Below, one piece after another: positions 7,418-34,930 of a stretch of 37,573 bases of DNA. Made by a program: the position numbers and the translations under genes. Origin of the DNA: a virus; IMG/VR virus record IMGVR_UViG_3300047481_000991, positions 1 to 37,573 of that record. The stretch is one strand, 5' to 3'. The notes under the pieces are model-generated. The model was not told the DNA's origin, made no database searches, and saw only the letters and a list, made by a program, of their open reading frames with translations. Position 1 is the stretch's first letter. Each line of letters starts with the position of its first letter.

Positions 7418-7642
7418 TTAGCCCTTGTATTTCTTGTTCGAGTGTCCTTTTAAGAACATGGATTCCTTTTTAGGCAATCCAGTGTCTTTTCCACCCTTGG
7501 TAAATCCGTCCGCGAAGTCATTTGAAAATCCATCCGCAGTCACCTTTCCTGCTGCTTTGGCATCAAACGCTCCGCCACAGGTTCCCTTGGCATATCGTTC
7601 TTCCATAGTCGTCACGAGAGATTTTCTGTCAGTCTGTTCCAT
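7418..7642 (-). CDS. Hypothetical small protein, 74 aa
   Basis: A Gly- and Lys-rich soluble 74-residue protein (begins MEQTDRKSLV; C-terminus KGHSNKKYKG). No signal peptide, membrane segment or known motif is seen. A candidate late-promoter motif lies 4 nt before the ATG, and the gene sits between a virion propeller protein and the RuvC-like gene. Lack of any competing frame and the promoter motif support it as real; the function is unknown. Confidence 0.65.
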   Translation of the reverse strand: MEQTDRKSLVTTMEERYAKGTCGGAFDAKAAGKVTADGFSNDFADGFTKGGKDTGLPKKESMFLKGHSNKKYKG

Positions 7643-7658: not shown

Positions 7659-10600
7659 TCAGATGTCGAATCGGATAATAAAATTGAGAGGAAAGTAACC
7701 CTGATTCTTAATCGGTGTTCCGAGTTTAGCAACTGCGACAAGGTCCAATCCATTGTATAACCCAACCGTCGTTACATAAGGGGATAGATTTGATCCTGTC
7801 GAGAACGAATCCACGGTCATATCCCTCAAAAATTCAGACTTTATCGTTTTAGGTTGACCTCTACCTGTCAACGTATTCAAATATCTAATAATTCCGTCGA
7901 AGGTATTTCTGGAATCGGACGACATTGATTTTGAACGCAACAGTGGTGATATATTGTCGGAATTCAACTTACCTATAAAGAACTTCCACAAGATTTTTAT
8001 ATCCAATTCGTCGGTTTTACCGTCAGAATTTATGTCCAACTGCTCAAAAATTGTGTCAGTCACATACTCGTAAACCCCCGCCGGGACGGTTTCCGTTAAC
8101 AAACTAACTCTCGTTTTATTTTCAAACGAGCTTGAAACGTGATATTGAAAAACACTTGCTTCCGACTGACCATCCACAGTGTTAGGATTGAGGAATGTGA
8201 ACAGATTCCACCAAGCTTCGCTGCCTGTGTTCTTTTTGTATATAGACCTTAGAATGAAGTCACAGTCGCTGAAATCAAAACTTCCATTCCCATTTAAGTC
8301 CGTCACCGTCGAGGCCACTTCATAAGATGTTGGATTTGTTGATACGTTAAATTCGCCGGTATTAACCGTGCAAATGATTTCCTTTTCGTAAAATTTCTCC
8401 GAACTCTTGTATGCTATATCGTATATCGGCACATCATTGAAACCACTTTCAAACATCGAACTGAACGTATTACTGTCGGACGTCAGAACAATTTTACCTG
8501 TTCTGTAAAACACATTTCCGATGTGATGTTCGACGCCCAAATCAGATAGGTCAAATATGTGAAACCCACCGTGGAAACTTCCTGACACATTTTCATTTGA
8601 AAACGAATAGTCAATATCATCCACCGCCGCGTCTAATAGTGGCATCGGATCACCTGTAATGAGGTTATCGCCAAATATTTCTACATCATTCGCGAAGAGG
8701 TAATATCCCACTCCTTTTAGTTTTTTCGGTTTATACTTGGCTAAGATGTCCCAACTAGAACTCAGAGAGGAAGTATAAATATACAACATTCCATTGTAGT
8801 CGTAATCAAAAAATTCATTATCTATCGGACTGTTTGTTAAAGTGTTTTTTATGTATGAGGAGGTGTATTCCGATAGATACTTTGGTGAGGAAATAGCCAG
8901 AGTATCTCCGTAGATGCTCACAGCATGACCAAACCGGTTCGAGTGAAAGTTATCCACATCTCCGAACAATCTGGTTTCATTCCAATGGGAACCTGTAAAT
9001 CCGTTCAAAGTGCAGTATCTTTTTTCAAAAACATATACCGCACCGTTTCTCATATGAGGGGATCCGCTGTATTCGAGTATATTTCTGTCATAAGGGGCAC
9101 CAATGGCCACCTTCACGTCGGTATCAGATGCACAGTAGATAGATACGGAGTTTCCGAATCCATCCATAGTGTTGTTTTGATTAAAATACGGTAGAACGGG
9201 AACAAAAAATAGATCCTCTTCTTCTTTGGTCGGAGAAAACTTCTTGGTTTCTTGCCATCCGGTGCTGGAGGATTCAAAGAGATAAACTTTAGACGCGGTG
9301 TTGTTCAGACTACCATTCCCGACTACAATTTTATTGAACCCTTTGTCTATTTCAAGTGTAGAACCGAAAAACACATCGGATGTCTCGCTTCCGGTCAAGA
9401 ACGTTTGGTAAACGTATCCGTTTGAGGAACTCTTGAATAGATACACAGACCCTCGAAGGCCACCGTCTTGACTGAACGGGGAGCCAACGGCGAGATAGTC
9501 GTCGTTCATGGATACCGAATATCCGAACGAACGGGATTGTTCATTTGAACCCAACGAACGGGTGACTACCTGAATTGGATCCGAAGAACTCGTGTTACTC
9601 AAATCATAGAGTAAAACAAAACCGCTTGCCGTTTTCGGAGTCGCTCCGATAGAACATCTCAAATCGGTCGTTGAAACCGCTAATAGGTTTTCAAACATGG
9701 AAACTGCAACTCCGAAATCCGACTTTGTTATCGACGTGACCGCACCGACGTGAGCAAGGGAACTGGTCTTAACCGTGAAGGTTCTGTCAAAAACGAATCT
9801 GTCGGATACAAGCCTCTCCTTTACGTAAACGTCCACGCTGCCCGTCTTAGTTATGTTGGATTCAAAAGATGGGCACCCAACAGCTGCAAAGAACTCGGAG
9901 GTCGCCACAGAGTATCCCACATTCGGGTGAAGTGATGACGTGTGTAGTGAATCCTTTACTATTTTTTCAAAAACGCTGCCGCTAGTGACCACGTTTCCGT
10001 CTCCATCATCTACAAGAGTGACTGATTGTTCCTGTGAACTATCTTCTATTCGGAGGGAATTCTTTTGAATTGTATCGCCGAAGTAAGCCTGTGGAACCGT
10101 GGCGACCTTTATCTGGCTCCCTATAAAACGCTTACTCCTGTCTAAGAACACGTCTATGTTCTCTAACCCAAGAACCTTTGTCGGATCCTTCGTGTCACTG
10201 TAGTAAGAATTCTTAATTTGGTCGTAGACGAGTCGTTTATACGTTCCATCGACGTTTTTGGAAGAAGATATGGGCAAAAATCTGACGTATTTTTCTACTT
10301 TCACACCCTCGGCGATATTGATGAACTTATCCGTGCTCTCTTCTAAAACAACATTAAAGTCGTCCACCCTATATTCCTCCACGTCACTTATAGTGAAGAC
10401 GTCTCCCGGATACGGATAGTATCTGAGGCTTAAACTCGTCTCCGTGAAAGACTTATCATAGTAATTGAACGAACCTGAAACGAAATTTGCAGTAGTCAAT
10501 CCCGATCTGAAATCTGTGTAGTTTATTCCCGCAGGAAGATTGTCACCGATGGAACTGGTCGTGTAGCTGGAATCGGTTAAGAGACAGTTTACGGAATTCC

Positions 10601-10673
10601 CTGGAGATCTCCACGTTTTTGAGACGTTAAATGGAGCAGCGGAAATATCTTCCTTACTTAGATTCTTAATCAT
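7659..10673 (-). CDS. Virion protein with FG-GAP-like beta-propeller and dockerin-like repeats
   Basis: A 1004-residue structural protein. From about residue 245 to 680 it has repeated blades of the form FG-SVS...LAVG-P (for example FGYSVSMNDDYLAVGSP near 385 and FGHAVSIYGDTLAISSP), typical of FG-GAP/integrin-type propellers that bind ligands or surfaces. Near residues 789-812 and 877-900 are two dockerin-like calcium-loop repeats (DLNGNGSFDFSDCDF and DINSDGKTDELDI). The last ~45 residues (YVTTVGLYN...AVAKL...IRFDI) closely match the C-terminus of the neighbour at 10752-11843. It is probably a baseplate- or tail-attached surface protein, perhaps for adsorption; that role is inferred from fold and context. 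Confidence 0.85.
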   Translation of the reverse strand: MIKNLSKEDISAAPFNVSKTWRSPGNSVNCLLTDSSYTTSSIGDNLPAGINYTDFRSGLTTANFVSGSFNYYDKSFTETSLSLRYYPYPGDVFTISDVEEYRVDDFNVVLEESTDKFINIAEGVKVEKYVRFLPISSSKNVDGTYKRLVYDQIKNSYYSDTKDPTKVLGLENIDVFLDRSKRFIGSQIKVATVPQAYFGDTIQKNSLRIEDSSQEQSVTLVDDGDGNVVTSGSVFEKIVKDSLHTSSLHPNVGYSVATSEFFAAVGCPSFESNITKTGSVDVYVKERLVSDRFVFDRTFTVKTSSLAHVGAVTSITKSDFGVAVSMFENLLAVSTTDLRCSIGATPKTASGFVLLYDLSNTSSSDPIQVVTRSLGSNEQSRSFGYSVSMNDDYLAVGSPFSQDGGLRGSVYLFKSSSNGYVYQTFLTGSETSDVFFGSTLEIDKGFNKIVVGNGSLNNTASKVYLFESSSTGWQETKKFSPTKEEEDLFFVPVLPYFNQNNTMDGFGNSVSIYCASDTDVKVAIGAPYDRNILEYSGSPHMRNGAVYVFEKRYCTLNGFTGSHWNETRLFGDVDNFHSNRFGHAVSIYGDTLAISSPKYLSEYTSSYIKNTLTNSPIDNEFFDYDYNGMLYIYTSSLSSSWDILAKYKPKKLKGVGYYLFANDVEIFGDNLITGDPMPLLDAAVDDIDYSFSNENVSGSFHGGFHIFDLSDLGVEHHIGNVFYRTGKIVLTSDSNTFSSMFESGFNDVPIYDIAYKSSEKFYEKEIICTVNTGEFNVSTNPTSYEVASTVTDLNGNGSFDFSDCDFILRSIYKKNTGSEAWWNLFTFLNPNTVDGQSEASVFQYHVSSSFENKTRVSLLTETVPAGVYEYVTDTIFEQLDINSDGKTDELDIKILWKFFIGKLNSDNISPLLRSKSMSSDSRNTFDGIIRYLNTLTGRGQPKTIKSEFLRDMTVDSFSTGSNLSPYVTTVGLYNGLDLVAVAKLGTPIKNQGYFPLNFIIRFDI

Positions 10674-10677
10674 TTCT

Positions 10678-10686
10678 TATAAATAT
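10678..10686 (-). promoter_or_regulatory. Candidate late-promoter motif
   Basis: Coding-strand ATATTTATA ends 4 nt before ATG 10673. It follows directly after a predicted terminator (10714-10745), as expected for the start of a new transcription unit. Confidence 0.5.
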
Positions 10687-10713
10687 GAAGAACCTAGTTT
10701 TATACGTCGATAT

Positions 10714-10745
10714 AAAAACCAAGATTTCGCCAATGGGCGGAAATC
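10714..10745 (-). terminator. Rho-independent terminator after virion gene
   Basis: On the minus strand, GATTT-c-CGCC, loop CATT, GGCG-AAATC forms a stem with one bulge (10723-10745). It is followed a few bases later by a T5 tract. It lies just after the stop of the gene at 10752-11843. Confidence 0.6.
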
Positions 10746-10751
10746 ATACCA

Positions 10752-11843
10752 TTAGAAATCCAATCGGATCCTAAAGCTCAATTCGGATGAAAAGTCCTTC
10801 TTGGTAGGCTGGCTTAGTTTTGCCACCGCTATCAATTCGTTCTGTTCGTTATATAGACCTACCGTTGTTACGTAGGTTTTCGGTTCTTCAACCAACGCAT
10901 CAATCACTTCTCCCTTGAAACTTCCCGAGATATTCTCTGGGTAGACAAAGGATGGGTTATTGGAGAAATTGAAATCTTGATTCTTCACCCTTACGAAATA
11001 ATGAGTCGAAGGAACTATCTCAGACTTCCTCACCCTCATATTCCGGTTGCTCTCCGCGACCATCTGATTGTAGAATCTGACACTGTTATCGACGTGGAAA
11101 GTAGATGTGAGTCCGTTATCGTAGTGAAAGCCGGCCAGTGTGGCGAGTTTCTTTGCATTAAATACCATGATTCCATTTTTAGGATAGAAGAGTCCGATTC
11201 CCTGATATTCTCCGGATACAACGGTTCTCCCTACGTCGCTATCAAAGCTTCCGGAAACAATCTGATAGACCAATCGTTGTTCCTTCTTCTCAGCCGGTGT
11301 AAGTAGTGCGGTTTCGTCCACAAGATGTAGACTCGCACTTCCACTTGCACCGTTTAAAGCAAATGCCCACTGACCTTTATCTATCTGGTCGTTCATAAGA
11401 TTGGTAGAGAACGCCATTACAAACACTTCTGAGCTTGTTATATAGGTGTTAGATGTTGAACTCCCCGTCTTAAAACTGAACAGACCATCTTCGTCAGATA
11501 TTCCAAGCAATGTGTTTGCAAACTGAGAATATATGGCCTTGGTGTTTTTGAATAAAGAACCTGTTTTTACTCCACCACCGTTTTTATCACCGTATGATAT
11601 GGAAAAAAGTAACTGTTTCGTGGATGCCGCACTGTCATATACGTTCGTGTAATACAGCCCATTCAAAACATCATACGTACCGTTTGAACCGGTGAGCTGT
11701 TTCTGGTCAGTGTCGGTCCTAAGCAAAGACTGCAAGAAGGTGGCTTGATTCCCTGGAAAATATCCATTCGATATGGTGTTGTTTTTTCCCGAAATGATGT
11801 CTCCCGAGTCAAACGACTGGTATATTTTGAAGTTGTTCTCCAT
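10752..11843 (-). CDS. Virion structural protein, 363 aa
   Basis: A beta-rich, Ser/Thr/Asn-rich protein with no membrane segment, inside the baseplate/tail block, 5 nt after the gene at 11849-12484. Its last ~45 residues (YVTTVGLYNEQNELIAVAKL, then a basic patch, ending FRIRLDF) share a module with the C-terminus of the 1004-residue neighbour, which suggests both dock to the same virion site. I do not recognise a catalytic domain. A structural role is inferred from context and the shared module. Confidence 0.78.
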   Translation of the reverse strand: MENNFKIYQSFDSGDIISGKNNTISNGYFPGNQATFLQSLLRTDTDQKQLTGSNGTYDVLNGLYYTNVYDSAASTKQLLFSISYGDKNGGGVKTGSLFKNTKAIYSQFANTLLGISDEDGLFSFKTGSSTSNTYITSSEVFVMAFSTNLMNDQIDKGQWAFALNGASGSASLHLVDETALLTPAEKKEQRLVYQIVSGSFDSDVGRTVVSGEYQGIGLFYPKNGIMVFNAKKLATLAGFHYDNGLTSTFHVDNSVRFYNQMVAESNRNMRVRKSEIVPSTHYFVRVKNQDFNFSNNPSFVYPENISGSFKGEVIDALVEEPKTYVTTVGLYNEQNELIAVAKLSQPTKKDFSSELSFRIRLDF

Positions 11844-19566: not shown

Positions 19567-21531
19567 TTACAGGCATTTTCCACGGATGTCCACGTCTGGA
19601 TATTTTACCTCGAAAACCGCTGGGTCGATTGGTGGATATACAATTTTATGTTTTGTCGCAGCATCCAAATCGTATTCACATAGAGAATAATTCCCTCCCA
19701 CAAGGTTTGTGAATTCCAGATTCGATACGGCTTGAACACCCTCCACCTTAGCGATTTCAAGCTCCAATTGTCCTATGTTAATCGGTTGGGAGAACTGCCA
19801 AAGTTCTATGTCGAAAAACTTCTTAACTGCGGAAATACAGTTAGCTAAGACTTCCTTCTTGTTGTAAGTGGAGTAGGTTAAAACGGTAAAGTCCACACCG
19901 ATGTTTACTATGAAACCGTCTATTATGTTAACCCTATCCGAGATCATTCGATATTTTGCTATGTATTTCTTTAAGTTGTAAACCAGTGCTTCATTTACAG
20001 TGGTCAGGTTTTTGTCGTCGTTGTAAGTCAAGACGTATAAGTTTATTCCGAACGGATTGACTCCATCAAGGTTCGCTTTTCTTAGGCCCGCTTGAGTAGA
20101 ATCCAAGATTAAGTTGTGATTTTCATCCAACAAACCATTCACCGATTGTATGTTGTTAGACGTCAAATCGGATTCGGATGAAACGTATGCCTTAGAAACC
20201 CTACCGTATTCAGCGGGCATACTAAGAATCCTCGCTACATAATCTTCCTTAGTCACCATTCTGTCCTGAGACGCGAAATTAGCCATTGCGTTCTGTTTCA
20301 TTTCCAATACAGACTCGGAAGAGGCTCCTCCGGTGGCCGGAGTTGGGTTAGATACCCTAAGACTGCTTTTTACGGTATTGACTAAATTGCTCTCAGCGGG
20401 CAAATATTCCACCGCGTCGTCAAATTCTATCTTACTCACCGTGGTTATGTCACCAACGTTCGCATTTGATTCGATGCCGCCGCCTATGATGTATTTTACA
20501 GATAGTGTTGTGTTGAAGGGGGATGACCCGTAAGAATTCGATTTAACGAAGCTGGTAGGGTCAAGGGTGAGATTATATCTGGACACGTTTGAGAAACCAA
20601 CGCCCAACAGCTCAGAATTCGGAACCAAAATTTCCTCTTCAAGACTATCCGTGGATGAACCGAACTGTAAGAACGTCTTATTGTTTTCATCGACTTCGAT
20701 GATATATCTCCGATTTGTCCTGAGGAATCTTATTATATTTGGAACCGTGGAACTGTAATTTGAATATGTCTCGAAATTAAAACGATTGTTCTCCACCGGC
20801 AAATGTATGAGGTCTTGGGCCAAGAAATCCACCTGATACCAATCGTTGTTATCAACGTCTTTTACAGACACAATTTTAATAACGTTGTCCTCAGCTAGTT
20901 CCACTCTAAGATTAGGTGTCTGTCCCGAAACAACAAATTCCCTAGAAACGGTCTTTCCAGAGTAAGCCTTCACCGATTTCTTTATAAGATAGAACTCGGG
21001 TTCCCCAGCACTGTTTCTCGAAAAAACCTCGTCAACTCTAGGATAGAGTTCGCTTTTTATAGAGAAATTAACCGTATCTGAGGTTATGAAGGATGTCCGA
21101 TTAGAAGACATAGCTTCCATTCCCTCCTTAACTATCAAAGCATAGCGTGTATCTGGTTCAAATGTTCCGTCGTCGTTACGTTTGGATGGGATTATTTGAT
21201 ATAAATCCAAAGTTGTTGTCGAGGGCTTGCTCGGCCGTGGGGTATATCCCAAAAACTTCACAAGATTTATGACGTTCTTCCGTTCTTCCGCAAAATTTAT
21301 CAACCCTTCTTTAAATTGATAATCAATGTAAAAAGACAATACATCGCCCACATAGGCGGCCATGTCAATGAACATCATTCCGGGAGACGCATTATTGAAA
21401 TCCTTATATGTCCGTGGGTAGTAATGCTTCGCAAAGTCGATAAGATTCTCCTTTAACGCATCAAAATCTTTGCCGAGGTATCGCACTTCTCTCGACAGTG
21501 GTTTGAAGTTCTTATCTAATGTTGTGCCCAT
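19567..21531 (-). CDS. Baseplate wedge protein, T4 gp6 / baseplate J-like
   Basis: The N-terminus (YYPRTYKDFNNASPGMMFID, then MAAYVGDVLSFYID and a helical region through FLGYTPRPS) is the classic start of gp6-like wedge proteins, which form the inner ring of the baseplate around the hub. Baseplate J-like segments follow: around residues 415-450 TKEDYVARILSMPAEYGRVS and, later, the IDGFIVNIGVDFTVL and INIGQLELEIAKVEGV region. At 654 residues it matches the T4 gp6 size class. It follows the gp25-like gene by 3 nt, as in many contractile-tail clusters. Confidence 0.93.
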   Translation of the reverse strand: MGTTLDKNFKPLSREVRYLGKDFDALKENLIDFAKHYYPRTYKDFNNASPGMMFIDMAAYVGDVLSFYIDYQFKEGLINFAEERKNVINLVKFLGYTPRPSKPSTTTLDLYQIIPSKRNDDGTFEPDTRYALIVKEGMEAMSSNRTSFITSDTVNFSIKSELYPRVDEVFSRNSAGEPEFYLIKKSVKAYSGKTVSREFVVSGQTPNLRVELAEDNVIKIVSVKDVDNNDWYQVDFLAQDLIHLPVENNRFNFETYSNYSSTVPNIIRFLRTNRRYIIEVDENNKTFLQFGSSTDSLEEEILVPNSELLGVGFSNVSRYNLTLDPTSFVKSNSYGSSPFNTTLSVKYIIGGGIESNANVGDITTVSKIEFDDAVEYLPAESNLVNTVKSSLRVSNPTPATGGASSESVLEMKQNAMANFASQDRMVTKEDYVARILSMPAEYGRVSKAYVSSESDLTSNNIQSVNGLLDENHNLILDSTQAGLRKANLDGVNPFGINLYVLTYNDDKNLTTVNEALVYNLKKYIAKYRMISDRVNIIDGFIVNIGVDFTVLTYSTYNKKEVLANCISAVKKFFDIELWQFSQPINIGQLELEIAKVEGVQAVSNLEFTNLVGGNYSLCEYDLDAATKHKIVYPPIDPAVFEVKYPDVDIRGKCL

Positions 21532-21534
21532 AAT

Positions 21535-21954
21535 TTAAATCTTTATGTTCTCTAACTCGAAATCGAGAGTGTCTTCCTGACCGGTCTGAATAACCGTGAA
21601 CTCCAACGATATTCTCAACTTATAATTATCATCGTTGGAAGAGTTTTCGGTGTTAATAATTGATATTTTATCGACTCTGACTTCTGGTATCCAAAAGGAA
21701 ATCTCTTCTCTTAGGAGGTTTTTTACTATTTCATTTATGTTCTCGTCCTGTTGTTCAAATAGAACGGTATACAACCTCGTTCCGAACTCAGGCATCATTC
21801 TCCTTTCCCCTCTCCTTGTTTTTAGGAAGTTTGAGAGGTTTGATTTTACCTGAGTGTTGGTGTCAAAAGATTGTTGAAAATACCCTCCAGACCCGTTTAC
21901 AATTGGCAAGGTTATGCCTATCGGGTATTTCGACGATGTTATGTTCGATGGCAT
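21535..21954 (-). CDS. Baseplate wedge subunit, T4 gp25-like
   Basis: A 139-residue gp25/gpW-like protein that nucleates sheath assembly on the baseplate. Visible: an N-terminal loop with SFDTNTQVKSNLSNFLKTRR, then GERRMMPEFGTRLYTVLFEQ, the conserved GER/PEFG core of the family, and the helix INEIVKNLLREEISFWIPEV followed by C-terminal strands. Its ATG overlaps the stop of the upstream 143-residue gene. Order hub-like, small protein, gp25-like, gp6-like matches contractile tail operons. Confidence 0.93.
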   Translation of the reverse strand: MPSNITSSKYPIGITLPIVNGSGGYFQQSFDTNTQVKSNLSNFLKTRRGERRMMPEFGTRLYTVLFEQQDENINEIVKNLLREEISFWIPEVRVDKISIINTENSSNDDNYKLRISLEFTVIQTGQEDTLDFELENIKI

Positions 21955-22385
21955 TATCTGTTAGACGACTTGGTTTTTGACAATTTTAACAGTTGAGAAT
22001 AGTCTCGTGTAAGAGCTGAAGCCACGGCTGGTGGAACGTTTTCTACATTATCCAGAACCGAAGGTGCCTCAGTTGTCATGGTGGACGGTGCGCCGCTTAC
22101 CATCTGACCCTCCTGTTTTATTCTGACCGTGGTTTCGTTAAGAATATCATTCAAGACCGCGTTTTTTACATATTGCCGCTTCGGTCCAGCGGATTGAGCA
22201 GCAGGAGGCGCAGGTCGTGGTTGTTTAGGAGCGTCATTCACTTGCTTCCGAACGTTCCCCTCTTGAATACCTTTAGACTGTGGTTTCATGCCGGAAAAAT
22301 ATTCATCCAGAACCGATGGTAATATCTCTCTTAATTTGCGTTCTATAGATTCTCCTATAATTTTCTTGAATTCGTCCGTGTTCAT
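21954..22385 (-). CDS. Hypothetical baseplate-block protein, 143 aa
   Basis: The N-terminal helix MNTDEFKKIIGESIERKLRE is followed by a Pro/Ala/Gln-rich linker (RPAPPAAQSAG) and a helical segment YVKNAVLNDILNETTVRIKQ. It overlaps the gp25-like gene by one base and follows the hub-like gene. It has no enzymatic motifs. It may be a baseplate accessory or assembly protein, inferred from its place between hub and wedge genes. Confidence 0.72.
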   Translation of the reverse strand: MNTDEFKKIIGESIERKLREILPSVLDEYFSGMKPQSKGIQEGNVRKQVNDAPKQPRPAPPAAQSAGPKRQYVKNAVLNDILNETTVRIKQEGQMVSGAPSTMTTEAPSVLDNVENVPPAVASALTRDYSQLLKLSKTKSSNR

Positions 22386-22411: not shown

Positions 22412-24016
22412 TTATCTTCTATTTTTTCCCACCCATCCACCGGGGACACCATCTCCGGATGAAACATCTATGGTTACGGGATTAACGCCGTCTGTTATTC
22501 TCCCACCGTTTGCTCCGGGAGAATATCCTCCGCCAGTAAGAAATACGCGGCGACTCATAAGAGTATGCAACTTGTCTTTAAGCGCATATAATCTCTTTAG
22601 TTGGACGGGAAATTGCGTTTGGTCTGGATTTGCTCCTCCAGCGTTCGGATGTGAGTGTTGATAACGGTGTGTATGTTCTATAAGCCAGTTACACAAATCA
22701 TACAACCAATCCACAGTTGTCTGTCCGAGTAGAGCGGGTTCTCCGGTTGCATCGTATTCACCCAAATATATCGCGGGGGCGTTGAAAACGACTTTTGAAT
22801 TCGTGGACATCACTATCTGGTCGTGAGCATCTACAACGTATTCACTATCGGTAACGACCATGTATCGTTTTTTTGAAAAGTGTATTGATTCACCGAACCT
22901 AGATGAAAATATCAGTCGGTCACTGTTGATAACTATTTGGTCACGGTTTAATGTAGGAAACTCAAACCTAGTGCTTCCTTTTGGACTGAACTTCGGTTGT
23001 TCCTCCGAAGCGTTTTTGGAAAGCGATGTCTTATAACAGGTGGTCTTGAAACTTGACACGGTTTTTCCTGACGTGAGGTGGATTGAAGAACCGTCGTTGT
23101 TTACATCCTCAGAAAGATATCCAGTAAAACTCTTTTCACTTAAAGACTTTGATATTGGTTGAATGACATTCAACTTTGGGTGTAGAGATTGTTCGGATAA
23201 CTGCGCAATAGGTCGTTGCCTATTTCGTATGAGAACCATTGGGTTTCCGCCACCATAGTTTTCGTCTCCGCTCACATAATTGTCGTAATCACCGGAGTCG
23301 TTCTTTCTTTCCGTGTCATAAGCTCCCATTCGTATACTCTGTCCGAACCTTCCCTCAACTATAACGTCTCCTTCAAATCTACGAAGATTCCTTATTTTGT
23401 TATTGAACCAGAAATAATTTCCCAAAATACCGTTGAAGCCGCCAACTGGACCATTAGGGAAACAATCGAATCGGGATACAGGTCCACGTAACTTTACGGG
23501 ACCATAGGAGGTATTTTTTTCCTTTTTTCCGTAAGTCATTTCATACCTAAAATCGGCGTTTGAATTACAATTCCCCTTTGTATTCACTTTTGATGTGTAG
23601 TAAAACTTATCAAAAATCTTTACAACGTGAACAACTTCGTTAAGAAGAGGAACTGATAAAAGAGTAGAATCCAATGGGACTGCCCATACCAAAGACTCCT
23701 TCTCAAACTTTTCATGTGTATAGCACAGTCTGACAAGCGCTGTTCCTATGGAAAAGTAATCCCGGTCTTGTATAGAAAGGGGTTTTCCCTGAAAATCAGG
23801 TGGGTTTTCGAGAGGGGCACTTACATTCCCAAGCCCTACTGATCCTGTTGAAAACATAGGATGAGAATCGTCAAGGACGACATCTAAAACGATGGCTGGC
23901 TCGAACTGTATTATACTCTTTCCACTCTGAATTATCTTATTGTCTCTCTTTGTAGAAAGCAAAACGACATCATCGGTGGATGTATCGAATATAGAATGGT
24001 CTATGGAATAACTCAT
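22412..24016 (-). CDS. Baseplate hub/spike protein, T4 gp5-like
   Basis: A 534-residue protein. It has an OB-fold-like N-terminal half (AVPLDSTLLSVPLLNEVVHV), GRFGQSIRMGAY near residue 225, and SRFGESIHFSKKR later, as seen in gp5/VgrG-like hub and spike proteins. Near residue 410-460: AIYLGEYDATGEPALLG, then TTVDWLYDLCNWLIEHTHRY, a module common in large-myophage hub proteins, followed by a His-rich stretch. I see no lysozyme domain. It precedes the gp25/gp6 wedge genes and overlaps the 128-residue gene by 4 nt. Confidence 0.85.
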   Translation of the reverse strand: MSYSIDHSIFDTSTDDVVLLSTKRDNKIIQSGKSIIQFEPAIVLDVVLDDSHPMFSTGSVGLGNVSAPLENPPDFQGKPLSIQDRDYFSIGTALVRLCYTHEKFEKESLVWAVPLDSTLLSVPLLNEVVHVVKIFDKFYYTSKVNTKGNCNSNADFRYEMTYGKKEKNTSYGPVKLRGPVSRFDCFPNGPVGGFNGILGNYFWFNNKIRNLRRFEGDVIVEGRFGQSIRMGAYDTERKNDSGDYDNYVSGDENYGGGNPMVLIRNRQRPIAQLSEQSLHPKLNVIQPISKSLSEKSFTGYLSEDVNNDGSSIHLTSGKTVSSFKTTCYKTSLSKNASEEQPKFSPKGSTRFEFPTLNRDQIVINSDRLIFSSRFGESIHFSKKRYMVVTDSEYVVDAHDQIVMSTNSKVVFNAPAIYLGEYDATGEPALLGQTTVDWLYDLCNWLIEHTHRYQHSHPNAGGANPDQTQFPVQLKRLYALKDKLHTLMSRRVFLTGGGYSPGANGGRITDGVNPVTIDVSSGDGVPGGWVGKNRR

Positions 24017-24399
24017 TTAATTTCCTTGACCTGAACTGATGTAGATTTTGAGTTGCTGGCCTGGAGTTTTTCAACTTCCTCCATAAGCTGTTTCCGTTCA
24101 TCGTCGGTTATGGAGAATCCGTTTGCTCCAGCAGCAGATTCTTCGTTTTGTTTTGAGATGATTCTCTGAATTATGGCTGCAAGCTTTACGAGTTGGTCAT
24201 CATTCTTGACCCCTACGTCCAGATAGTCCCGTATCAGTGGAACTATAACGATGGCATCGTTTACACCTTTTATAAGAGAGCGAAGTTCGCTTATCAAGAC
24301 GTCTAATTGGTCTTTTTTCTCGTTTTGATTTACAACTATCTCCTTACACAAGGCAGCGAAGGATTTCCCCTTATATATCTCAAATTCATTAAGTTCCAT
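24013..24399 (-). CDS. Hypothetical coiled-coil protein, 128 aa
   Basis: Largely helical and charged: MELNEFEIYKGKSFAALCKE, then helices including QLDVLISELRSLIKG, and a C-terminal KQLMEEVEKLQASNS. It contains no membrane segment or catalytic motif. It is the first gene of the baseplate transcription unit, overlaps the hub-like gene start (ATGA), and has a candidate late promoter 4 nt upstream. Likely a structural or chaperone protein of the hub; unproven. Confidence 0.72.
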   Translation of the reverse strand: MELNEFEIYKGKSFAALCKEIVVNQNEKKDQLDVLISELRSLIKGVNDAIVIVPLIRDYLDVGVKNDDQLVKLAAIIQRIISKQNEESAAGANGFSITDDERKQLMEEVEKLQASNSKSTSVQVKEIK

Positions 24400-30706: not shown

Positions 30707-31441
30707 TCAGTCCTTTTTGGATTCTTTTTTGATCTTTTTGATGATAAACTTCACCAACTTCGACCTAACGATGTCGTCCTCATCGAATGTAAATGTATAA
30801 ATTCCGTTTTCTTTACTATCATCATCGTTGAAGGTATCAAACATTTTCTTGAATCCACTTTTAAGACCTATGTCCGTTTGGTCGGTATCACCGAGGACAA
30901 ATATCTTACTAAATTCTCCTACGCGGGTAATCAATGTCAACAGTTCCTTCGGAGTCATGTTCTGTGCTTCGTCGGCTACAATAGCCTTGGCATTCCAGTT
31001 CAATCCCCTAAGAAATCCAACTGGAACGGATTCTACACGACCCTCTAATTGAAGCGCACGAACCTCGGACGCGGGCAACAATTCATCCAACTTGTCGATA
31101 AGAGGTTGGAGATATGGAGCCATTTTCTCATTACATTCTCCGGGAAGAAATCCCAATTTGCTGTCACTGCTTTCGACCGCACTTCGTATATACATGAGGT
31201 CACTGACCCTCTTCTCGTTCATAAGCTTCAACGAGGCCAATACGGATAGATAGGTCTTTGCGGTTCCTGCTGGACCAGAGACGAAAATCATCTTTACATC
31301 CCGGTTAAGAGCAAGAGATAGAAACTCCTTTTGTTTTTCTGTTAGAGGTTGTTTTTCTAAAATTGTAAGACCGCTTTTTATCTTAGATTTTTGAGGAATG
31401 ACGGGGCTTGTGTCTTGCTTCCGCCGGTTTTTATTTTTCAT
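30707..31441 (-). CDS. phoH: PhoH-like ATPase
   Basis: A 244-residue P-loop NTPase. LTEKQKEFLSLAL precedes Walker A GPAGTAKTYLS (residues ~56-66). RSAVESSDSKLGFLPGECNE is the typical PhoH motif, with AIVADEAQNMTPKELLTLIT as Walker B near residue 160 and FVLGDTDQTDIG as the sensor. PhoH proteins are widespread in large marine and other phages; their role in infection is unsettled (RNA-related ATPase suspected). The C-terminus is Lys-rich. The start overlaps the stop region of the 102-residue gene by about 11 nt. Confidence 0.93.
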   Translation of the reverse strand: MKNKNRRKQDTSPVIPQKSKIKSGLTILEKQPLTEKQKEFLSLALNRDVKMIFVSGPAGTAKTYLSVLASLKLMNEKRVSDLMYIRSAVESSDSKLGFLPGECNEKMAPYLQPLIDKLDELLPASEVRALQLEGRVESVPVGFLRGLNWNAKAIVADEAQNMTPKELLTLITRVGEFSKIFVLGDTDQTDIGLKSGFKKMFDTFNDDDSKENGIYTFTFDEDDIVRSKLVKFIIKKIKKESKKD

Positions 31442-32074: not shown

Positions 32075-32359
32075 TTAATCTTCACATCTTTTGTTGTGAA
32101 TGTCAACATCTTTGATTACATTTAAAATCTCGTTTATCGCAGATGCATAAGTGTTCGCAAGATCCGCCGAAGTCAAATGGCTTCGGCCTGTGACGGAATT
32201 AGAAATGACCTCGATTTTATCAAGGGCCTTTACAAGTTTGTTTTTTGCCCGGCGTTCTGCTGCAACAAAACTCTTCGGAACCAAGTGTTCAAATTCCGGT
32301 TCAGTCTCCGGAGTCTTGAAATCATCTTCATCCATGTAATAACGTTTTTGGTTTTTCAT
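32075..32359 (-). CDS. Hypothetical protein, 94 aa
   Basis: An acidic N-terminus (MDEDDFKTPETEPEFEHLVP) is followed by a helical body (AAERRAKNKLVKALDKIEVI; ADLANTYASAINEILNVIKD). An in-frame ATG eight codons downstream would reduce the 32-nt overlap with the upstream gene. No known family recognised. Part of a three-gene run between the tmRNA and the terminator. Confidence 0.62.
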   Translation of the reverse strand: MKNQKRYYMDEDDFKTPETEPEFEHLVPKSFVAAERRAKNKLVKALDKIEVISNSVTGRSHLTSADLANTYASAINEILNVIKDVDIHNKRCED

Positions 32360-32621
32360 TTGATTTGTTTGTTAAAAACTCCACAAGTTCATCTTTACTC
32401 TTTACGGTCAATACAATTTCATCAGCCCATAAATTTCCCGTCGTAAACAGCCTCCATGCCCACCGGAAACGTTCTTTCCAGGATAATGGTTTTGTGGCAT
32501 TACCGTAACTCCAGATGGAAAGATTGTATTGGTCAAACTCCGTATCATGTTCTACTTCAACAGCATGTCCATAACAGGCACACTTGATGAATAATGTTCT
32601 CGATTTTTGGTCTTTAGTCAT
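32328..32621 (-). CDS. Hypothetical phage protein, 97 aa
   Basis: The sequence around FIKCACYGHAVEVEHD, NLSIWSYGN, and FRWAWRLFTTGNLWADEIVL matches the feel of a small conserved phage family that begins with a Cys-containing strand. I place the start at ATG 32621 (MTKDQKSRTLFIKC) because that puts the conserved strand at the N-terminus. The frame is open upstream to ATG 32702, so a 124-residue form is possible. Two Cys and one His could bind metal, but no clear site is seen. Confidence 0.68.
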   Translation of the reverse strand: MTKDQKSRTLFIKCACYGHAVEVEHDTEFDQYNLSIWSYGNATKPLSWKERFRWAWRLFTTGNLWADEIVLTVKSKDELVEFLTNKSNEKPKTLLHG

Positions 32622-32992
32622 ACACTTTTTATATTTATTGATACTATGAATTCGTATCCTCGTCACGGCTTGATTGATAGAATTCTTCACATAGTTCTCC
32701 ACTCACGCTGTATAATACGTATATCATACAAATTCATAACTGGCAAGATTTTATACCGAGATTTTTGTAACCGATTGAAGTTTTTCAGAGACGGAATAAT
32801 CCGTTCGTTTCTTTGGAAATAAATTGAAAGTATTTTGACCACGGGAACGTCTCGTCCCATCCAAGAGCTTACACATTCAAGGTAGCAGCCTATCACGGTA
32901 ATTCGGTTAAACTTAATAACTTACTGTTTCGCGTGAGTATTCGTATATGAAATATGACGAATATATAGTAGTTCTTCACAGGTAACTTTCAA
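32622..32992. other. Intergenic region downstream of tmRNA
   Basis: 371 nt with no convincing gene. It holds a 69-codon minus-strand ORF (32687-32896), whose composition is unlike its neighbours and which I do not call. There is a possible sigma70-like pair, TTGCCA-N17-TATACG, on the minus strand, and an AT-rich inverted repeat at 32938-32963. Confidence 0.5.
32938..32963 (-). repeat. AT-rich inverted repeat after tmRNA
   Basis: TATTCGT and ACGAATA form a perfect 7-bp stem around a 12-nt interior that can pair further. It lies about 30 nt beyond the tmRNA 3' end and could end the tmRNA transcript, but no T tract follows. Confidence 0.35.
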
Positions 32993-33376
32993 GGTGGAGA
33001 TGTCGGGAGTCGAACCCGAGTCCTTAAAACTAACTTCACCCAAGACTACACGTTTATGGTTTTTGTTTTTTCGAGAAGGTGATACTAAAACCCGAAAGTT
33101 CCTCTTCCTTAGATTTGTATTATTTCAACCCACCAACCAAATCAAATGGTGTGTCTAACACGATAAGTAGCGTAACATGAAAATACCGTGTATCAATCCA
33201 TGTTACGGGTAACCTAATTAGGCTACGGCGTATTCGGCCTCGACACCTTCTGGTGTGAAGTCGTATGCGATTACGTTTTTAGCGTTTATCTTTTTGATAG
33301 ATTTTTAAAGAAGCCAACTATCATCTTCTACGTGCCCTAAATGTCGCTTATATTAAGTCGAAACCAGTGCATCCCC
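32993..33376 (-). ncRNA. ssrA: Transfer-messenger RNA (tmRNA), one-piece
   Basis: Rescues stalled ribosomes: acts first as an alanine tRNA, then as an mRNA for a degradation tag. The 5' end GGGGATG (33376-33370) pairs with CATCTCC at the 3' end, including the G3-U70 wobble that marks alanine charging. The T arm is TCGGG-TTCGACT-CCCGA. The 3' end reads A-CC-T, so the last A of CCA is not encoded. The resume codon GCT is at 33283-33281. The tag starts AKNVIAYDF, ends EAEYAVA (21 codons) and stops at TAA 33218-33220. Pseudoknots are visible: PK1 (GATAG/CTATC, then TCTTT/AAAGA) and PK2 (CGTAACATG/CATGTTACG with ACACG/CGTGT). The P2 stem GCACGT/ACGTGT closes the structure. At 384 nt it has normal length. 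No smpB is seen in the window. Confidence 0.97.
33218..33283 (-). other. tmRNA tag-peptide reading frame
   Basis: 21 sense codons from resume codon GCT to TAA encode a tag that starts AKNVIAYDFTP and ends VEAEYAVA. The hydrophobic AVA end is the type recognised by ClpXP-class proteases. It is longer than the common 10-residue ANDENYALAA-type tag. Confidence 0.88.
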
Positions 33377-33410
33377 AATAGTATTCAAAGAACTAACCAA
33401 TCCTAACATC

Positions 33411-33419
33411 TATAAGTAG
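33411..33419 (-). promoter_or_regulatory. Candidate late-promoter motif upstream of tmRNA
   Basis: Coding-strand CTACTTATA ends 34 nt before the tmRNA 5' end. Since tmRNA needs no ribosome binding site, this copy favours a promoter over a translation signal for the recurrent motif. Confidence 0.45.
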
Positions 33420-33433
33420 GAAGTCAATCAGAA

Positions 33434-34930
33434 TTAATTGTATCCTCGGAGAACTTTCATCACTTTATCTAAAGACAAATTTTTAAAAACCAAATCCTCT
33501 CTTGAGTTTTGACCTGGTACTCCGAAGTTGAAATTCATTTTTACAGAAAATTTGTTGAAAGTGTCGTTCTCTGGCATAACCATAGCAGAATAATAATCCG
33601 AAGGACCTTTTTTTCCTTCTGGGGTAGTGATTAACAAAAATCCTCCGAACCTGCCGCCGTGAATCTTTTCCACCCAAAAATTGTCCGTATCTTTTGGGTC
33701 TAAGTATTTGCTTGTGGATATATTCTTCCCACCGAAATCCTGTGAAGCCCGAATTTTAGATAAAATTGATTGGGTCGTTAGTGAAGATGTTTTATCACTT
33801 TCCCTCAACTTCCCCATCCGGACATCCCTATCGTGGGGTTTCTCCCCCATCGGAGGTTCGGTCGGACAGCTTGGCATATGATGGACCAATCCGCTCATGG
33901 GCATTCTATAACGAGTTTCGCTTGGAAGTATTTCACGTTTGCATCTAAAACACATATCTTTATTAGCCTCTCCCTCAAACTCTTTTAATAGATCATTTTT
34001 GGTAGAATTAGTTGGTAATGTGTGTCCACATGAACTACAAGACTTTGTTCCCTCAATATCATTATGAATCGAGGTTTCTCCATAAGTTCCTTTTTTACAC
34101 CTTACACATTTCTTACCAGTTATATCAATCGTCTTTTCTGGTTTCACTTCTGGCTTAGGCATTGTGAATGATTGTATCTCGTTCACGAGGTCCCAAAGAT
34201 TCTTTCCCATCACGTCATCATACACCGCAGAATCAATTTTATCCCATTGTTCATCCGTTGGTGACGGTGTGACACTTTCGATTTCGACATCAACTGACGT
34301 CTCATCAACTTCTGAATGAAATTCTCCGTGCGGTTGTGGTGTTCCGACTACGTTACCGGATACGGTTGCTTCATAGTCAAAATCCGACCCGTCTACATTG
34401 ACCGTGCCTTTAACGGTTTTTGAAAAGTGTTCCACATCTTCTTTTATCTGACCCGCAGCCAACTTCTGATTCAACTCAGCAGCAACCGCTTTTGCCCGAC
34501 CTTCATCATAATACTCCATACCAATCGGAGTCTCTTCATATTCGTCACCCATAGGGTCAGATGTCACCCGAACCACTTGATAAACAATCTCACGTTCGGC
34601 ATCTGGGTCCCGACTTCCTCTTGATAGGTCTTCTCGGTTTACAAAGAAATGAGTTTTCTTGCCGTTCGATGGCTGTCCACCGACGTTTTCTGACAAGTTA
34701 TACATCTGTCTAAAATAATTGTATCCGTAAACAATATCTCCGGCGAAAGAGTATACACCAATATCTCTACGTCCATCAGCGTAAGTCGCCCACACATACT
34801 CAAATTTCTTATCACCCATCATAAACGGTTTTTCTCCGTTCATCTGTCTCAAGTAGGTCACATACTGTTCTCCTGTGTCAACTTCGTTCAAACATTGACG
34901 GATAAGTTTTTTCAAAATGCCTTGTTTCAT
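33434..34930 (-). CDS. Unrecognised 498-aa protein with zinc-ribbon-like motifs
   Basis: N-terminus MKQGILKKLIRQCLNEVDTG, then a basic/aromatic region (YVWATYADGRRDIGVYSFAG). Residues about 265-300 have CVRC...CSSC, a zinc ribbon, and about 325-360 have CFRC...HHMPSC, a second possible zinc site. The C-terminal ~110 residues form a separate domain (FWVEKIHGGRFGGFLLITTP). Acidic linkers join the parts. No known phage family recognised. It follows the 573-residue gene by 21 nt and precedes the tmRNA. It could be an injected or DNA-associated protein, but that is a guess. Confidence 0.75.
   Translation of the reverse strand: MKQGILKKLIRQCLNEVDTGEQYVTYLRQMNGEKPFMMGDKKFEYVWATYADGRRDIGVYSFAGDIVYGYNYFRQMYNLSENVGGQPSNGKKTHFFVNREDLSRGSRDPDAEREIVYQVVRVTSDPMGDEYEETPIGMEYYDEGRAKAVAAELNQKLAAGQIKEDVEHFSKTVKGTVNVDGSDFDYEATVSGNVVGTPQPHGEFHSEVDETSVDVEIESVTPSPTDEQWDKIDSAVYDDVMGKNLWDLVNEIQSFTMPKPEVKPEKTIDITGKKCVRCKKGTYGETSIHNDIEGTKSCSSCGHTLPTNSTKNDLLKEFEGEANKDMCFRCKREILPSETRYRMPMSGLVHHMPSCPTEPPMGEKPHDRDVRMGKLRESDKTSSLTTQSILSKIRASQDFGGKNISTSKYLDPKDTDNFWVEKIHGGRFGGFLLITTPEGKKGPSDYYSAMVMPENDTFNKFSVKMNFNFGVPGQNSREDLVFKNLSLDKVMKVLRGYN

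Follow-up and report, generated by a model that had tools for sequence, protein, structure and literature searches.

The window, that is the whole stretch of 37,573 nucleotides analysed here, is an entire linear virus record of IMG/VR. It carries a single tRNA or tmRNA gene, a one-piece tmRNA that is also its sole Rfam match at gathering. The gene is preceded by a short leader with a promoter-like site and a boxA-like motif and is adjoined at its 3' end by a predicted structured RNA, F1. The features of the region, given from upstream to downstream, and the gene used to find relatives are as follows.

33434..34930 (-): g498, conserved upstream neighbour of the tmRNA, of unknown function (synteny)
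33400..33427 (-): sigma70-type promoter-like site, TTGACT-16-TAGGAT, conserved in position in 9 of 12 distinct relatives
33385..33393 (-): boxA-like motif of the leader, GTTCTTTGA, beginning 17 nt ahead of G1 of the tmRNA
32993..33376 (-): one-piece tmRNA (ssrA) gene (ARAGORN; RF00023; covariation)
33218..33283 (-): tag frame and its stop, encoding AKNVIAYDFTPEGVEAEYAVA, resume codon GCT (ARAGORN)
32826..32991 (-): F1, structured RNA of about 165 nt adjoining the tmRNA 3' end (trailer comparison, covariation)
32687..32896 (-): small ORF o69, overlapping F1 over the latter's 3' half (matched by tblastn in L012, L014, L083 and L084)
32328..32702 (-): o124, conserved small ORF downstream (39-89% identity in relatives)
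30707..31441 (-): PhoH-like ATPase, conserved neighbour (PHROG 170, E 5e-63; synteny)
19567..21531 (-): baseplate wedge protein, query for relatives (PHROGs)

An earlier note, made from the letters of the DNA, had described a complete phage tmRNA with a G3-U70 pair, T arm, resume codon, tag frame, stop and at least two pseudoknots, and had proposed the Rfam covariance model as a check of the fold. Both the identification and the fold are borne out. ARAGORN calls the gene, and RF00023 matches positions 32992-33376 with 139.5 bits (gathering score 47, E 9e-55), the model being covered end to end (positions 1-374 of 374). All of the elements listed are present, the pseudoknots being four in number and the tag 21 codons long, and the acceptor stem is GGGGAUG/CAUCUCC with the G3-U70 alanine identity pair. 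In its full consensus match, this pair, the T arm, the tag frame and the four pseudoknots, the molecule is like bacterial ssrA; it differs in being phage-borne, in its boxA-like leader, in the F1 element downstream, in the lack of an smpB gene found with it, and in that CCA is not encoded. Indeed, the window tmRNA ends in ACCU, so that its 3' end must be trimmed and then completed by the CCA-adding enzyme. Some relatives (L019, L020, L035) do encode CCA.

Searching with a degenerate pattern of the tag start led to 17 further IMG/VR viral contigs, in all of which (17/17) Rfam finds a tmRNA above its cut-off, while ARAGORN reports one in 13 of the 17 fetched stretches. The baseplate wedge protein led to two additional tmRNA contigs, G019 and G025. 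The genes around the tmRNA and elsewhere in the window encode baseplate wedge, gp25, tail collar domains, PhoH and SbcC/SbcD-like proteins, in agreement with the earlier description of the flanking genes as phage-like. A common gene order (g573, g498, tmRNA, small ORFs, PhoH, tail genes) is found in contigs from many metagenomes, and this shared neighbourhood excludes, as a general explanation, a host segment joined to a phage contig by assembly error. The carriers form an uncultured clade of tailed phages whose baseplate genes are of the contractile-tail type. No blastn match to the window phage was found among 50,697 named phage records, and scans of genome contigs for a host gave no match. 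The isolates that come nearest in the wedge protein, Microcystis phage Mel-JY01 (38%) and Flavobacterium phage immuto (34%), both lack a tmRNA above cut-off.

Twelve distinct tmRNAs of related phages were aligned and scored at 71 named pairs, which belong to 12 helices: the acceptor, the T stem, P5, part of P2 and the four pseudoknots. Of the cells of this alignment, 93.7% are paired. Both sides have changed in a compensatory manner in 33 of the 71 pairs, compared to 17.9 +/- 2.2 in shuffled alignments and 6-11 when the pairing is slid by 1-3 columns. The T stem is 100% paired, with compensatory changes in four of its five pairs; PK1, PK2a, PK3 and PK4b are each paired in at least 92% of cells, and the weakest helices are PK2b (79%) and PK4a (66%). 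Three versions of the acceptor occur among the relatives (GGGGAUG/CAUCUCC, GGGGCCA/UGGCUCC and GGGCCCG/CGGGUCC), and G3-U70 is kept in each; it is present in 11 of the 12 aligned tmRNAs, and the twelfth, L035, shows the same pair if a one-base bulge is allowed. This rewriting of the stem around a retained alanine identity pair is strong evidence, from comparison, that the tmRNA would be charged.

The tag was examined in the same way. Among its first 10 codons, the variable columns number 0, 1 and 5 of ten at codon positions 1, 2 and 3, respectively, and relatives with tags of 20 and of 21 codons preserve the frame. This pattern of substitution indicates that the tag is under coding selection. 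Helix covariation and third-position variation, taken together, mean that the tRNA-like and the mRNA-like halves of the molecule are both maintained. With the same neighbourhood in 17 plus two contigs, they also argue that the tmRNA is phage-borne and under selection, and the comparison shows a conserved molecule competent, by its sequence, for alanylation and tagging. Because prophages use ssrA as an integration site and acquire fragments of it (PMC9004378), the gene might be thought a functionless host-derived passenger or the remnant of an integration site. We regard this as extremely unlikely, since RF00023 matches the gene from end to end and not as a fragment, and since the complete gene has strong covariation, conserved synteny and its own leader across the clade.

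The tag had been described in the earlier note as unusual, at 21 residues much longer than typical. This did not hold: known tmRNA tags range from 8 to 35 residues (PMC8012679). A literature search with the tag string gave no match. Its nine N-terminal residues (AKNVIAYDF) are nearly invariant among relatives while the second half drifts, as if these nine were read by something. This would suit a phage tag that sends stalled host or phage proteins to a different fate (slower decay, a different protease, or reading of AKNVIAYDF by an adaptor), the benefit then lying in the tag and not in the supply of ribosomes. However, the end of the tag consists of small hydrophobic residues, as in ordinary ssrA tags, and constraints on the RNA or on the resume codon may hold the N-terminal bases, though third positions vary; such retargeting seems to us unlikely.

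The search for smpB was negative in the window, in the 17 related contigs and in further relatives, most of the relatives being fragments. Host SmpB is therefore probably used, and the function of the tmRNA would depend on the host. Our preferred reading, which we consider likely, is that of a working phage tmRNA that supplements host trans-translation during infection. Three roles had been suggested beforehand: keeping ribosomes free in late infection, tagging host proteins for a different protease, and replacing a degraded host tmRNA. Of these, the supply of ribosomes is the most plausible.

The molecule could also act as a decoy, sequestering host SmpB or AlaRS and thereby blocking host trans-translation. 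Phage RNAs reduced to the tRNA-like domain (TLD) do exist, as in DS6A, a similar molecule there inhibiting tmRNA (PMC4131195). The huge phage LR756508 has a 112-nt TLD-only RNA with G3-U70 (L111:1501-1612; LR756508:414804-414915), possibly a decoy of SmpB or AlaRS, alongside a full tmRNA. Yet a decoy needs neither tag frame, nor stop, nor pseudoknots, all of which are selected in the window's clade, which makes a decoy very unlikely here. The full tmRNA of LR756508 (L109:1501-1947) is followed, about 12 kb downstream and on the same strand, by a homologous wedge gene (38% identity). Unlike the window, LR756508 has the TLD-only RNA and a match resembling RNase P RNA (49 bits), and F1 was not detected in it. 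The tag given by ARAGORN for its full tmRNA, GRRKPLSW, looks wrong; by eye, the tag has about 32 residues and ends in ERKPAAV.

Phage tmRNAs were called uncommon in the earlier note, which is fair: they are found in 402 of 18,146 phages, or 2.3% (PMC9004378). Ten are listed in PMC4131195, and huge phages provide others (PMC7162821, with tmRNA and SmpB; PMC8172020). Bacillus phage G and the mycobacteriophages Bxz1 and Wildcat have a one-piece tmRNA in a lytic phage, as here (PMC4131195, PMC7474061), and the tmRNA of Wildcat is a precedent for high expression (PMC7474061). The aquatic methylophage Melnitz, a myophage, resembles the window in having ssrA and a second structured RNA element in the transcript (PMC9004378); its tmRNA is permuted, in two pieces, and accompanied by a glutamine riboswitch, whereas that of the window is in one piece and F1 matches no riboswitch. 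The window tmRNA is thus a new, well-conserved example of an already known kind; its surroundings are less expected, and matter more.

The leader is one part of these surroundings. Taken in the window alone, the promoter-like match is no better than chance, chance matches being common in the region, so that the evidence for the site is its conservation. A single regular expression finds a sigma70-like pair with 16-nt spacing in 9 of 12 loci; there is no match in L026, L033 and L035, the last of these loci being cut short. Between this site and the tmRNA, the motif GTTCTTTGA is invariant in all 12 distinct loci (12/12), its first base lying 14-19 nt ahead of the tmRNA 5' end, and none of the loci fetched contains a second copy; when lengthened to 11 bases it is, across whole records, almost confined to tmRNA leaders. 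It is absent from the tmRNA leader of Bacillus phage G, unlike that of the window. Pairing between leader and trailer as the cause of this conservation was rejected from a by-eye comparison, since the trailers differ among relatives.

The consensus of boxA, a motif of rRNA leaders, is GYTCTTTAANA in gamma-proteobacteria (PMC5725501). Over the first nine positions GTTCTTTGA has one mismatch to this gamma-proteobacterial consensus: a G for A at the eighth. Other bacteria use G at this position of boxA. A literature search for the variant returned only unrelated papers. We infer a boxA function from the similarity to the consensus, and the invariance of this boxA-like leader suggests that the phages borrow rRNA-style antitermination for structured RNAs.

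A working phage tmRNA could then be made and used as follows. A sigma70-type, host-type promoter would drive a single precursor, and the boxA-like leader would recruit host NusB/S10, so that the long untranslated RNA is made full-length. RNase P and 3' nucleases would release the tmRNA, CCA would be added, and host AlaRS and SmpB would load the molecule, which would free ribosomes stalled on truncated messages. Tagged fragments would go to host proteases, and what the phage would probably gain is a pool of free ribosomes late in infection.

F1, the other part of the surroundings, was first detected by comparing tmRNA trailers, and the predicted element follows the tmRNA in the window and in about half of the relatives. 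Its copies are located as follows.

32826-32991 (-) of the window
L012, L007, L014, L034, L083 and L084
L125:305-466 (-)
L126:316-471 (+)
L128:10002-10163 (-)

A covariance model built from seven members gives 150-195 bits in tmRNA phages of the window's group. Outside the training set it finds F1 in G032 (62 bits, E 2e-13), in G037 (46 bits, E 1e-9) and in G042, whose copy scores like that of G032 and is not independent of it. The combined alignment has 43 pairs with 96.8% of cells paired and compensatory changes in 25 of the 43, compared to 8.8 +/- 2.2 after shuffling and 0-7 when the pairing is slid, figures that are favoured by the fitting of this alignment to the model; a first, structure-free alignment (MAFFT) already held 12 compensatory pairs. 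Folding of the single sequence is not more stable than that of shuffles (z +1.0), so that the case for F1 rests on covariation. In Rfam, F1 has no match at gathering, none that is credible at E up to 5, and none to a riboswitch. A hammerhead or other self-cleaving RNA was considered and set aside, because the strand order of the hammerhead does not fit and Rfam is negative, and a coding sequence is argued against by indels of 1-4 nt and by the position of F1 between tRNAs in sister phages, although o69 overlaps part of it. With its clear consensus structure, F1 is a candidate for a new RNA family. Within a limited literature search, we could not match the leader and F1 to anything described.

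The remaining trailers are of several kinds. The tmRNA relatives L020 and L035 have neither F1 nor an alternative hairpin. In L023, L025 and L029, a different short hairpin lies directly 3' of the tmRNA, and in L033 this hairpin and then F1 follow the tmRNA.

The phages G032, G037 and G042 are sisters of the window's group, with wedge proteins near 48% identity. They have F1 and no tmRNA above cut-off, and their F1 occupies the space that separates tRNA-Gln(ctg) from tRNA-Ser(gga). The stable RNAs C and D of T4 lie in the tRNA cluster of that phage. They are, like F1 of the sister phages, structured RNAs other than tRNA within a phage tRNA array, F1 being known here from sequence and covariation alone.

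In G032 and G042, GTTCTTTGAGAT is followed by an RNA resembling RNase P RNA and then by an array of tRNA-Ala, tRNA-Gln and tRNA-Ser, so that an RNase P-like RNA heads the tRNA array in at least two sister phages. The G032/G042 RNA matches the whole model of RNase P RNA class A (RF00010) with 45.3 bits (E 7e-13); the phage RNAs of this type, at 45.3-49 bits, do not reach the gathering score of 100, and they carry the GAGGAA and ACAGAA motifs. They are located as follows.

L128:10903-11170 (-)
L134 (G032:56905-57172)
L132:1501-1726 (LR756508:76010-76235)

A homologous, more divergent RNA that Rfam does not detect is present in G051, and the 3' part of one lies at the contig end in G037. A search of the records with an RNase P-like RNA for the RNase P protein (PF00825) was negative. 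A limited literature search found no report of such an RNA in phages. If true, it would be a case of a virus bringing its own tRNA-processing ribozyme.

We put forward tentatively, as a possible though doubtful generalization, that these phages run a stable-RNA operon of their own behind an rRNA-style boxA leader, with tmRNA and F1 in one clade and, at the matching locus of the sisters, an RNase P-like RNA together with tRNAs and F1. F1 would then be a new RNA class acting on translation or RNA processing, and some phages would encode a catalytic RNase P RNA.

Two further observations were made. An additional apparent structured RNA lies between two tRNA-Ala genes (L128 about 10640-10830 (-), L085 about 1260-1470 and L088 about 240-590), with a closing stem AGATAC/GTATCT, or AGATGT/ACATCT in L088. 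The genes of the window have no clear Shine-Dalgarno sequence, and TAYTTATA stands a few bases before several start codons, for example upstream of the genes at 7418-7642, 7659-10673, 21954-22385 and 24013-24399. The window holds 9 copies of this motif for 3.7 expected, a number reached in 0 of 100 shuffles, and TAYTTATA is possibly a late promoter giving near-leaderless messages.
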